In this document: one piece after another, positions 12,131 through 19,157 of the stretch
How positions within the stretch are numbered: position 1 is the stretch's first letter
Layout of the letters: each line of letters begins with the position of its first letter
Source: Candidatus Omnitrophota bacterium
Lineage (GTDB): Bacteria > Omnitrophota > Gorgyraeia > Zapsychrales > Fredricksoniimonadaceae
Length of the DNA stretch: 41,362 nt
Assembly (NCBI GenBank): GCA_002753745.1
Contig: PEAR01000005.1
Location: forward strand, 1 to 41,362
Direction: 5' to 3'
The notes under the pieces: generated by a model
Database searches by the model: none
What the model saw: the letters and a program-made list of their open reading frames with translations, nothing else
What the model was told of the DNA's origin: nothing
Translations under genes and position numbers: made by a program

Positions 12131-13528
12131 TCAAGAAGTAAGGGAAGAATTAACAGAACGAACTTCATCGGTAACAAGAGACAAAAAAGCATCCACGATT
12201 TTTGGATCAAATTGTGTGCCCCGGTTCTTGCGGATCTCGATCAAAGCCTCTTCACGGCTGCGGGCCTTTCGATAGGCCCGGGTCGAAGTCATGGCATCAT
12301 ACGTATCCGCCACACAGATAATTTGAGACAGGATATTGATACGAGCACCCTGTAAATGATCCGGGTACCCCTTCCCGTCAAACCGCTCATGGTGACTGCG
12401 AATAACAGCCGCCATTTCGGGAGACAAAGCGACCGGCTTGATGATCTCCTCGCCAATAACGGGATGCTGGTTGATCAAATCTCTTTCTTCAGGCGTCAGA
12501 GCGCCATTCTTATTCAATAACCCGTCATGGATACCGATCTTGCCAATATCATGAAGTAATGCCGCCTGCCGGAGAAAAGCAACATCGGCTTGTGAAAATC
12601 CCATCTTTACCGCTATCCCGGCCGCATATTCTGCTACGCGTTCAGAATGCCCACGCGTATATGTGTCCTTAGCTTCAACAATACGAACCAGTGTCTGAAT
12701 AACGCCATAAAAATAATTTTGGTTTTGTTCCTGGGCCTTATCAAGATCTTTGGCCATTCGGTTAAAAGACACCGCCAACCGGCTAAACTCATCATTCCCC
12801 CGGACCGGGACCTGATAAGAAAGATCGCCCTTGCTGATACGATCCGTTCCCTCGATTAATGCCCCGATCGGCGCCGATATCTGTACTGACAAAACAACCC
12901 CGATCACCAGTGACAAAAGAACACCGACGATCAGCAACAATAGACAGCGATCATTGGCTGTACGGCTGGTCAAAGCAAAGTCATCCGCGGAAAGATCTAC
13001 GCCGATAACCGCCACGGTACTTCCATTGGCATCCCGGATTGGAGCATACCCTGATAACGTCGCCCCCCACTCATCAGTTTCAAGCTTTTTATCAGCAGAA
13101 GGGCTGTCCCATGCCTTTAACATCTCCGGAAAACGCGTTGCGTTATACTTGTCCCCCGGATTGGCCGAAGGTCTTCCCTTACGATTGGATGGATCGATAT
13201 CAACAATAAATTGCCATAAAGGGTTGCTGCTGGTTTTTGTTAAGACATAAATATAGTGTACAGAGGGATTGCAATCTCTAACCCGAACAAGAAAATCCGA
13301 GACCCTCTTATAAGCAGGCGATTCTTTTCCTTCTTTTGTCAGAGGAATCTCTTTTAAGGAGGGAACATCGACGCTAATAGCAGCGGTCTGCGCCACCGCT
13401 TTCAACTCATCGCGCAACTCTTCCAGGTGAGCATCCAGCAAAAAACGCTGGATCACCATGTTACCAGATACCACGACGAATAACATCGCAAGAACAATCG
13501 CAAAAGTTAGCCGGAATCTAAATGACAT
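12131..13528 (-). CDS. Membrane HD-GYP domain c-di-GMP phosphodiesterase with HAMP
   Basis: Predicted sensor enzyme that degrades cyclic-di-GMP. Two membrane helices (about 7-27 and 194-217) flank a periplasmic Cache-like sensor domain. HAMP follows at about 215-268, then HD-GYP at about 275-455. The metal and signature residues are present: HDIGK with H326/D327, HPVIGEE, the HH pair in RSHHERFDGKGYP with GYP at 387-389, and VADTYDAMTSTRAYR. The enzyme therefore looks active. It lies downstream of the tRNA-Ser terminator and 30 bases upstream of the YfhO-like gene. The c-di-GMP riboswitch at 15770 is only 2.2 kb away, which suggests a local circuit; that is inference. Confidence 0.93.
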   Translation of the reverse strand: MSFRFRLTFAIVLAMLFVVVSGNMVIQRFLLDAHLEELRDELKAVAQTAAISVDVPSLKEIPLTKEGKESPAYKRVSDFLVRVRDCNPSVHYIYVLTKTSSNPLWQFIVDIDPSNRKGRPSANPGDKYNATRFPEMLKAWDSPSADKKLETDEWGATLSGYAPIRDANGSTVAVIGVDLSADDFALTSRTANDRCLLLLIVGVLLSLVIGVVLSVQISAPIGALIEGTDRISKGDLSYQVPVRGNDEFSRLAVSFNRMAKDLDKAQEQNQNYFYGVIQTLVRIVEAKDTYTRGHSERVAEYAAGIAVKMGFSQADVAFLRQAALLHDIGKIGIHDGLLNKNGALTPEERDLINQHPVIGEEIIKPVALSPEMAAVIRSHHERFDGKGYPDHLQGARINILSQIICVADTYDAMTSTRAYRKARSREEALIEIRKNRGTQFDPKIVDAFLSLVTDEVRSVNSSLTS

Positions 13529-13745: not shown

Positions 13746-13834
13746 CGGAGAAGCAGGGATTCGAACCCTGGGACCACATTTCTGCAGTCACACACTTTCC
13801 AGGCGTGCGCCTTCAACCACTCGGCCACCTCTCC
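13746..13834 (-). tRNA. tRNA-Ser (anticodon GGA)
   Basis: An 89-nt class II tRNA. The acceptor stem GGAGAGG pairs with CTTCTCC (one G-T), the anticodon loop CTGGAAA reads UCC/UCU serine codons, a long variable arm of serine type is present, and the T-arm contains GGTTCGAATCC. The discriminator base is G, as normal for serine. CCA is not encoded. It lies downstream of the glycosidase-like gene and is followed by a remnant of its own 3' end and a terminator. Confidence 0.95.
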
Positions 13835-13925: not shown

Positions 13926-15605
13926 TCACGGTTTAACAGCAATTGTCGAAAAGGCTCCATCACCCATATTGCCGTCGATGTAAAACGGATTATATCCTCG
14001 ATCCACAAAGATCATCCAGCCCGTTGACGCCAGGCTCATCACCCGCGGATCATGTGAGTTCCACCCAAAAGGGATCCAGTCCCTTTTAGATGAGTATGCA
14101 TACGCCGATACCCCTCCCGGCATTTCTCGACGAAATTCATTCATGCCCATTCGCATTTCATCAGCGTCCTGCAATAACTCTTTTGTTCTATCTGAATGAT
14201 CTTGATTATAAAACTGAGCCAACTGACGTGCGGCCAAAATAGCCCCCGCCGACCATTCAACCGATATTCTGCCTGTTTCCCTTGTATAGCCTACACCCAT
14301 TAGCCGGCCAGCAGCATCACGTGTTGCCGATGCCTGCTTTGCCTGCTGCCAGCATGAATACGCAGACCCATCACCAAACCATCGATCAATGGTTTCAACG
14401 CCCAAAGACAGAATCCCCCAGGTTTGAACATCAACCGCGAATTGATCCGTATTAACGTGCCATTCGTTATTTCTAAACGTCATTCCCTGATAAAAAAAAC
14501 GTCGATCATGATCGAATACTTGTTTGAAATATCCTTCCATCTTCTGCATCGCCGAAAAATATACTTCCTTTTTTGTAACCTGATAAAGCATTCTAAATGC
14601 GCTATACCAGGATAAATTGTTTTCAGTTGAAATCTGGTTATACCACCAGCTTCCCTGACCCGACGAAAGATCCGGTTCATTTTCGCGAAAAGTTCCCAAA
14701 GGGGCCATCCGGATCCCTCCGTTACTGGCCTGAAGCATCAACGCCGCTCGAGCGATCTCCTCGGATAATCTCCATTCGATTGATTCAGGATGCTCGTCAT
14801 AATCCATTTTCTGTCGATCAAAATATTTTTTGTGATAAAGATGCATCGCGGCGATAACCACCCAGGCATTCTCACCGGCGACAGGCTTCCAATCTTCCCA
14901 ATGGATGTCCGGCCAGGTGGGAAATCCATTAAAATGAGTCTTCCCATCAACAGGATCAGCAGCCAAATAATCACCATCAGCATTAATGATACGAAAAATA
15001 AATCCTCGAATGCCCTTTGCATCGGTATTAGATGAAACAGCTTCTGGATTTCCTGGATCGTATATAAAATTATTACCTGAATAACCAGCTCTTATATTTG
15101 ATAAATTGCCGAATCCGCCCTCCCAAAAGATCTTGAGAGGCTTCTCCGCTACGCCAATATCATCATTACTGCCAGATAATGTCAAGGCGATTTGACCAAC
15201 AGCGCTATCATAGATCACGAGTCCCTTATCAACGACAATACGTTCAATAATACCGGTAACGGAATCAATCTTCCCCATTTTTGAAAAAACATCTATTCTG
15301 TCATCGGCAAGAACCTGAAAACTATAGAAAAGACCTGTTTTTGAACTTACATTATTTTTAATCCAATGAAACAAATTTTCATCAATGTATCTCTCGGTAG
15401 TAATTTTATTATTCCTAATATTCTCGGTACTGAGTAAAGGGTAATGAGAATATTGGATATCCCCTAACATAGGTAGGCCGTAAGGAATTAACGGCAAAGA
15501 TTGTTCGCGAATTGATATGCCATCAGAAGAGAATGCATTATTTAAGCCAGTAAACAATAAAAAAACCACTATTAAAGTTAATTTAGCAATTGAACCTAAA
15601 CACAT
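13926..15605 (-). CDS. Secreted six-hairpin glycosidase-like protein under a c-di-GMP riboswitch
   Basis: A 559-residue exported protein. The signal peptide covers about 1-26 (hydrophobic core LTLIVVFLLFTGL). The rest is rich in Trp/Tyr and contains repeated helical motifs such as ENAWVVIAAMHLYHKKY, DVQTWGILSLG and SVEWSAGAILAARQLAQFY. These are reminiscent of (alpha/alpha)6 barrel glycoside hydrolases and phosphorylases. I cannot assign a GH family or catalytic residues. The start is strong: AAGGAG seven bases before ATG. Transcription starts at a TTGAAA/TATCTT promoter, passes through a c-di-GMP-I aptamer and a terminator, then reaches this gene. The product is therefore likely an extracellular carbohydrate-active or biofilm-matrix protein made according to c-di-GMP level. 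Confidence 0.78.
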   Translation of the reverse strand: MCLGSIAKLTLIVVFLLFTGLNNAFSSDGISIREQSLPLIPYGLPMLGDIQYSHYPLLSTENIRNNKITTERYIDENLFHWIKNNVSSKTGLFYSFQVLADDRIDVFSKMGKIDSVTGIIERIVVDKGLVIYDSAVGQIALTLSGSNDDIGVAEKPLKIFWEGGFGNLSNIRAGYSGNNFIYDPGNPEAVSSNTDAKGIRGFIFRIINADGDYLAADPVDGKTHFNGFPTWPDIHWEDWKPVAGENAWVVIAAMHLYHKKYFDRQKMDYDEHPESIEWRLSEEIARAALMLQASNGGIRMAPLGTFRENEPDLSSGQGSWWYNQISTENNLSWYSAFRMLYQVTKKEVYFSAMQKMEGYFKQVFDHDRRFFYQGMTFRNNEWHVNTDQFAVDVQTWGILSLGVETIDRWFGDGSAYSCWQQAKQASATRDAAGRLMGVGYTRETGRISVEWSAGAILAARQLAQFYNQDHSDRTKELLQDADEMRMGMNEFRREMPGGVSAYAYSSKRDWIPFGWNSHDPRVMSLASTGWMIFVDRGYNPFYIDGNMGDGAFSTIAVKP

Positions 15606-15641
15606 AACCCTGCTCCTTCGTTAAGGCAGGGCATAAAAAAA

Positions 15642-15660
15642 CCTTCGATCGTATCGAAGG
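15642..15660 (-). terminator. Riboswitch expression-platform terminator
   Basis: CCTTCGAT pairs with ATCGAAGG around a three-base loop and is followed by seven T on the minus strand. It lies between the c-di-GMP aptamer and the ribosome site of the 559-residue protein, where a transcriptional riboswitch keeps its terminator. A second 11-bp hairpin, GTACTTTTAGC with GCTAAAGGTAC, lies just upstream (about 15670-15725). A third, CCCTGC with GCAGGG (about 15608-15631), brackets the Shine-Dalgarno. Confidence 0.8.
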
Positions 15661-15769
15661 GTCTGGTAGGTACCTTTAGCATAAAAATTGCACTCTCAAG
15701 CACAACTTAAGCTAAAAGTACTGGTCGAAGAAGGTTGGTTTGCCAAATCATGGCAAGCTTAACGTCCTC

Positions 15770-15862
15770 ACGACGGCAACCAGACAGCCTTTCCCCATAA
15801 GTGAGGATTCAGGCTCACGGCTTTGCGCCCTACCATTTCAAGTAGTTTGCCTTTACTTCCTA
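15770..15862 (-). ncRNA. Cyclic-di-GMP-I riboswitch aptamer (GEMM-I)
   Basis: Read on the minus strand, the hallmark parts occur in order: GGCAAAC, a stem CTACT/GGTAG capped by a GAAA tetraloop, the near-invariant GGCGCAAAGCC, a second arm closed by AGCCT/AGGCT with inner CCTC/GGGG, and GGTTGCC closing the base stem. This is the GEMM-I consensus that binds c-di-GMP. The mapped promoter would start transcription right at the aptamer's 5' edge. The leader to the start codon is about 255 nt. Confidence 0.93.
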
Positions 15863-15868
15863 AGATGA

Positions 15869-15897
15869 AAGATAACACATCAGGAAAGCGTTTTCAA
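15869..15897 (-). promoter_or_regulatory. Promoter of the c-di-GMP riboswitch unit
   Basis: Minus-strand TTGAAA (15892-15897) and TATCTT (15869-15874) are 17 bases apart. The expected start, near 15862, coincides with the 5' end of the aptamer, which supports the site. The remaining bases up to the rrn terminator (15898-15987) show nothing else. Confidence 0.65.
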
Positions 15898-15979: not shown

Positions 15980-16017
15980 AAAAAAAAGACCCGTCAAAAC
16001 TTTCGTAATGACGGGTC
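15980..16017 (-). terminator. rrn operon terminator
   Basis: GACCCGTCA (from 16017) pairs perfectly with TGACGGGTC, and eight T follow on the minus strand, directly after the 5S gene. This is a strong Rho-independent terminator. Confidence 0.93.
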
Positions 16018-16025
16018 AAGTAAAA

Positions 16026-16138
16026 CCGATAACTATCTACTCTCCCACACCCAAAGGGTACAGTACCATCGACCTTGAAGAGCTTAACTGCCGTATTCGG
16101 AATGGGAACGGGTGTTGCCTCTCCAGTAATGTTATCGG
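16026..16138 (-). rRNA. rrf: 5S ribosomal RNA
   Basis: About 113 nt. The ends pair (CCGATAAC with GTTATCGG). The conserved loop sequences GAACACCCG-like CAACACCCGTTCCCATTCCG and the 3' GGTGTGGGAGAGTAG region are present. It lies 64 bases after the 23S gene and before the operon terminator. Confidence 0.95.
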
Positions 16139-16202
16139 AAAAATATCAACAATTATGTAATGTAAGTGTAAAAAATTAAACCAGTAGTTTAAAATAAAAA
16201 AA

Positions 16203-19157
<2,955 letters not shown>

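Follow-up and report, generated by a model that had tools for sequence, protein, structure and literature searches.

Riboswitches of the c-di-GMP-I (GEMM-I) class, collected in Rfam as RF01051, include the Vc2 aptamer of Vibrio. A guanine at position 20 distinguishes the aptamers for c-di-GMP from cGAMP types, and an A to G exchange there is known to turn a cGAMP-selective aptamer into one selective for c-di-GMP (PMC6456294). In Cd1, an OFF switch of Clostridioides difficile, the terminator lies downstream of the aptamer and is compatible with its folded form, and the antiterminator needs aptamer strands (PMC9262584). For the phylum Omnitrophota, the main survey makes no mention of c-di-GMP, riboswitches or biofilm, and we found no open-access paper mentioning both Omnitrophota and c-di-GMP.

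The window analyzed here (41,362 nt) corresponds to contig C29 in a draft genome of 2.54 Mb with 86% completeness; the closest public relatives of this genome are MAGs of Candidatus Omnitrophota. It carries a c-di-GMP-I aptamer upstream of a single gene for a 559-residue protein, and the switch is real: the pairing of aptamer and gene repeats in some twenty related genomes. We consider it likely that the locus is a single-gene c-di-GMP-I OFF switch, with its own promoter and an intrinsic terminator, controlling an exported (alpha/alpha)6-barrel protein that probably acts on a surface or matrix glycan.

Aptamer, leader and genomic setting

The match to RF01051 covers the whole model (positions 1-87 of 87) and scores 61.5 bits, the cut-off being 35, with an E-value of 8.9e-10 over the whole window, and P2 is capped by a GAAA tetraloop, in agreement with the GNRA loop of the family. 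The bases aligned with G20, A47 and C92, pocket positions in Vc2 numbering, are G, A and C; because G is found at position 20 and the pocket bases are kept, c-di-GMP is the expected ligand. The initial annotation as a c-di-GMP-I riboswitch is thus borne out, and the aptamer is an ordinary member of its class. The sole c-di-GMP-II match in the window, below cut-off at 16925-16994 on the minus strand, lies inside the 23S rRNA gene and was dismissed as a false positive.

All elements of the leader that had been read from the sequence, i.e. promoter, aptamer, terminator, ribosome site and signal-peptide gene, are present in that order (Table 1), with the 5' end of the aptamer at about the transcription start predicted from the promoter, and chance arrangement is excluded because the order from promoter to gene repeats in many relatives. 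The two additional leader hairpins described earlier, one in the linker between aptamer and terminator and one around the Shine-Dalgarno sequence, are also present. The sequence of the linker hairpin (GTAC..GTAC) is not retained in relatives, and its candidacy as a conserved part was rejected. An rRNA operon lies upstream of the gene and a tRNA gene downstream of it. Since the rRNA operon stops at its own terminator, the gene has a separate transcript, and read-through from the operon was rejected.

Table 1 Features of the riboswitch locus and its surroundings (window coordinates)
Feature	Position	Strand	Basis and remarks
HAMP/HD-GYP protein, predicted c-di-GMP phosphodiesterase	12131..13528	-	Pfam HD_5 5.3e-37, HAMP 4.9e-14; neighbour gene
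tRNA gene	13746..13834	-	RF00005 match; just downstream of the 559-codon gene
Predicted exported (alpha/alpha)6-barrel protein, 559 aa, unnamed family	13926..15605	-	ORF
Start codon ATG	15605	-	
Hairpin GCCCTGC..GCAGGG enclosing Shine-Dalgarno AAGGAG (15618..15613)	15608..15632	-	read directly
Intrinsic terminator CCTTCGAT-ACG-ATCGAAGG-T7 (RNA CCUUCGAU-ACG-AUCGAAGG + 7 U)	15635..15660	-	read directly; -9.3 kcal/mol, tail included
ACCAGAC, complement of P3 3' strand	15661..15667	-	abuts terminator
Linker hairpin GTACTTTTAGC/GCTAAAGGTAC	15670..15721	-	read directly and predicted fold
Conserved structured stretch, 57 nt, CGUCGUGAGGACGUUAAGC ... CUUCGACCAGUA	15719..15775	-	conserved in 5-6 leaders
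c-di-GMP-I (GEMM-I) aptamer	15772..15861	-	cmscan RF01051
P3 3' strand GUCUGGU, proposed antiterminator half	15779..15785	-	within P3 in the aptamer; with ACCAGAC in truncated transcript
Sigma-70-type promoter	15870..15897	-	-35 TTGAAA 15897..15892, 16-nt spacer, -10 TTATCT 15875..15870; read directly
Terminator of upstream rRNA operon	15980..16017	-	GACCCGTCA..TGACGGGTC and T run; between 5S gene and riboswitch promoter
5S rRNA gene	16024..16139		upstream of riboswitch promoter

A stretch of 57 nt that follows the aptamer is conserved beyond the window. Its consensus fold in five leaders has 15 pairs, of which two show two-sided changes, and L011 shares the first part, GTGAGGACGT.AAGC. No Rfam family matches it, and elsewhere in the 55 genomes searched the motif occurs just once, at about the chance rate. 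The stretch may belong to the switch itself, form a further regulatory domain or be a separate element.

The host plausibly makes, degrades and senses c-di-GMP, because the genome has GGDEF and PilZ matches (one and ten, respectively) and the window encodes a REC-EAL protein in addition to the HD-GYP protein, although a single GGDEF match, in a genome that is 86% complete, counts somewhat against an OFF switch responding to this signal. The genome has two c-di-GMP-I matches. The second of these, on contig C19 (L002, 1501-1667, plus strand), has an enlarged P3 and precedes a small cysteine-rich reading frame. A second recurring c-di-GMP-I target in the order is a group of exported proteins, 76-96 aa long, that have a motif resembling F.LSVTIP and are encoded downstream of GEMM-I matches at L038, L040, L041, L043, L044, L047, L050, L056, L061 and L062.

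Conservation of the aptamer-gene pairing

Homologues of the 559-aa protein are present in 38 of the 55 genomes searched, and a c-di-GMP-I match in 50 of the 55. Directly upstream of seventeen homologues, the window's included, and in the same orientation, lies an aptamer that passes an Rfam cut-off, either of RF01051 (L003, which is the window, L007-L015, L018, L019 and L082) or of RF03167 (L021, L022, L023 and L025). Weaker or insert-bearing aptamers precede about six further homologues (L024, L020, L026, L016, L078 and L017). Two of these fall just below cut-off (L024, 34.5 bits; L020, 32.8 bits) and L026 and L016 score weakly, in all four cases owing to hairpin insertions between P2 and P3; L078 shows the same layout by pattern only, and L017 is interrupted by a contig end, yet the P3 end and the terminator are kept. 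No aptamer was found before six paralogues (L004, L027-L031), nor, by pattern search, before L088, which is a second gene copy of one genome. In a maximum-likelihood tree built from 24 proteins, with L016, L020 and L024 scored as having a riboswitch, the label "riboswitch" needs a single change (support 100/99), and none of 500 shuffles needed as few. One gain or loss thus explains the presence and absence of the aptamer on the protein tree.

The surroundings of the gene are partly shared as well. The promoter CTTGAAAACG...TGTGTTATCTTT recurs in the corresponding position upstream of L007, L008 and L009, and slightly changed upstream of L010, L011 and L082. The homologue also lies behind an rRNA operon in L007, L008 and L082, and a tRNA gene follows it in L007, L008 and L009. 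In most homologue leaders the terminator stands directly before the Shine-Dalgarno sequence. The leaders of the sister genus (L021-L023 and L025) have no terminator, and their aptamer stops 1 nt before the ATG.

Two kinds of variation were seen among the aptamers. In those with extra hairpins (L016, 1061-1201, plus; L020, 3046-3134, minus; L024, 2838-2922, minus; L026, 1115-1226, plus; L078, 5699-5779, plus) one or two additional hairpins stand between P2 and P3, after GGGAC and before CAAAGCC. Such c-di-GMP-I aptamers may be undercounted, since the Rfam models place them below cut-off. At the place of G20, the base before the same gene is A in L018 (1221-1253) and L082 (1607-1639) and C in L015 (1265-1353). 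An A at this place is typical of cGAMP-sensing GEMM-Ib, and ligand preference may have shifted within the regulon.

Expression platform and predicted direction of control

Aptamer and terminator share no bases. In the full leader at equilibrium, the pair probability of the terminator stem in six leaders was 0.91-0.99 with the aptamer locked in its canonical Rfam structure and 0.93-0.95 unlocked. A thermodynamic two-state switch was rejected, since the full leader forms the terminator in every state, and because the terminator wins at equilibrium with or without the locked aptamer, switching must be kinetic. The initial annotation had named a lack of mutually exclusive pairing of aptamer and terminator as a finding that would refute it. 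Taken literally such pairing is absent, as the two coexist; a proposed kinetic antiterminator built from aptamer strands would answer the objection, any exclusion being indirect, by way of the antiterminator.

In the window transcript cut before the 3' arm of the terminator, GUCUGGU of P3 is predicted to join ACCAGAC, and the 5' tail, through its GGAAG, is predicted to pair with CUUC in the arm of the terminator. In truncated transcripts of the window, L008 and L009, the terminator region pairs with the aptamer more than most shuffled regions do, as high a value being reached by 4, 6 and 3 shuffles out of 100, respectively; in L007, L010, L012-L015 and L019 this pairing was no better than that of shuffled regions. 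Directly against the terminator, each of the six clade leaders (window, L007, L008, L009, L011 and L082) carries 6-9 nt complementary to the P3 3' strand, with a chance probability per leader of 0.0008 to 0.15. The complement of L012 (GCCAGACAA against UUGUCUGGC) has shifted to a position behind the terminator, where it adjoins the Shine-Dalgarno sequence. Locking the canonical aptamer frees part of the terminator arm in L008-L011; its effect on the window's own arm is slight (from 0.49 to 0.58 unpaired), and in L007 locking acts in the opposite direction.

The following model is proposed. At low c-di-GMP, the P3 3' strand and the 5' tail would pair with the emerging ACCAGAC and the 5' arm of the terminator, and this antiterminator would let the polymerase read through. 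At high c-di-GMP, the bound aptamer would retain both strands, the terminator would form and expression would fall. The evidence favours this OFF sign, which is a prediction, because the predicted antiterminator of the truncated transcript uses aptamer strands, because aptamer and terminator coexist without common bases as in Cd1, and because ligand binding should hinder initiation in the sister genus, given the position of the aptamer next to the ATG.

An ON switch, in which the ligand promotes read-through as cGAMP does in the GEMM-Ib pilM leader of Geobacter, appears unlikely. ON switches are known in the class (PMC9262584; GEMM-Ib in PMC6456294), and the linker segment CUUCGACCAG could pair with the 3' arm of the terminator or with the P3 strand, giving an antiterminator that the aptamer would favour indirectly. 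Nevertheless, the terminator does not overlap the aptamer and stays formed when the latter is locked, and the sister-genus leaders set the aptamer against the start codon, which fits an OFF switch.

Control was suggested earlier to be both transcriptional and translational. The part of this suggestion that concerns the Shine-Dalgarno hairpin stands, since the hairpin is real and GCCCTG..CAGGG with the Shine-Dalgarno inside is kept in five leaders (window, L007, L008, L009 and L082), and translational layouts do occur in the sister genus. An added action of the window riboswitch on translation through this hairpin is nonetheless improbable, more so than an ON switch, as the hairpin is local, lies 3' of the terminator and is predicted whether the aptamer is locked or not; fold predictions gave no effect of ligand state on it.

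The predicted barrel protein and comparison with described systems

The 559-aa protein begins with a signal peptide, as judged from its N terminus, in agreement with the exported target proposed initially. Sequence comparison with Pfam, NCBIfam and the PDB gave no match for it, either alone or as a 24-member family profile, and one family member alone shows an N-terminal match to NF047503, a model of unnamed function. The AlphaFold2 model (pLDDT 83.1, pTM 0.83) gave as best Foldseek matches in the PDB cellobiose and glucose 2-epimerases (CE/AGE), followed by GH76 mannanases and linalool dehydratase isomerase (E about 1e-7, probability 1.00, identity about 11%, TM-score 0.45 by query length). 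Model and search agree on an (alpha/alpha)6 barrel, a fold expected of a glycoside hydrolase that is also common to non-hydrolases in a large superfold. The alignment shows invariant residues including aromatics and the acids E121, D133, D217, D220, D238, E245, E328, D392, E443 and E450; these would suit a glycan-acting enzyme, and hydrolase, epimerase and lyase are alike compatible with them.

The label "glycosidase-like" accordingly holds for the fold and goes no further: neither a family model nor a catalytic residue links the protein to glycoside hydrolases, and among the 24 members no Pfam glycoside-hydrolase profile matched above cut-off, nor did any NCBIfam model that names an enzyme. 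The chances are close to even, if slightly below, that the same barrel instead serves as a sugar epimerase, a lyase or a glycan binder without catalytic activity. The rank of the 2-epimerases ahead of the other structural matches and the lack of any family model that names the protein point this way; epimerases of the CE/AGE group, however, are cytosolic as a rule and this protein has a signal peptide, and the many invariant acids are also in keeping with a site that cleaves or transfers glycans. The target is probably a surface-sugar enzyme that would be turned down at high c-di-GMP.

Outside Omnitrophota, the genome scan found only two relatives, both deltaproteobacterial proteins of about 25% identity. 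The same domain also occurs inside very long open frames of 5,424 to 20,296 aa (G007:C15, G014:C13, G049:C318, G009:C79 and G042:C1); these are the giant proteins that have been reported for Omnitrophota (PMC10066038). At L102, a 3,239-residue open stretch combines the domain with HEAT repeats and a transglutaminase core, and domains linked to it in the long relatives gave no functional hint beyond these.

What is new here is the host clade, the unnamed family of exported targets and the depth of conservation with differing expression platforms. A riboswitch kept before one unnamed exported protein across an order provides a concrete c-di-GMP target in uncultured bacteria, and the natural series of expression platforms before one gene makes the sign of control testable. 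Tentatively, the proteins may constitute a new family of Omnitrophota glycan enzymes, exported and built on an (alpha/alpha)6 barrel, with a c-di-GMP-I riboswitch as core regulation kept across several families of the order, a platform that moved between terminator and start-codon occlusion, and a post-aptamer stretch that may be a further regulatory domain.

Among described proteins, the CE/AGE and GH76 enzymes share the predicted barrel, whereas the 559-aa protein is about 150 residues longer, predicted to be exported, about 11% identical and without a family model match. Like Vc2 and RF01051 in general, the window aptamer has the full consensus, with P2 and its tetraloop, P3 and the pocket bases; it differs from known members such as Vc2 in host phylum, target family and the conserved structured stretch between aptamer and terminator. 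The c-di-GMP-I-GGC variant (RF03167) sits before orthologues of the same gene in the sister genus, whereas the window aptamer is of the standard type. Unlike the pilM ON switch (PMC9262584), the window has an aptamer and a terminator that coexist. Its layout resembles that of Cd1, with the direction of control predicted only, and differs from Cd1 in its linker, which spans about 110 nt and contains additional hairpins.
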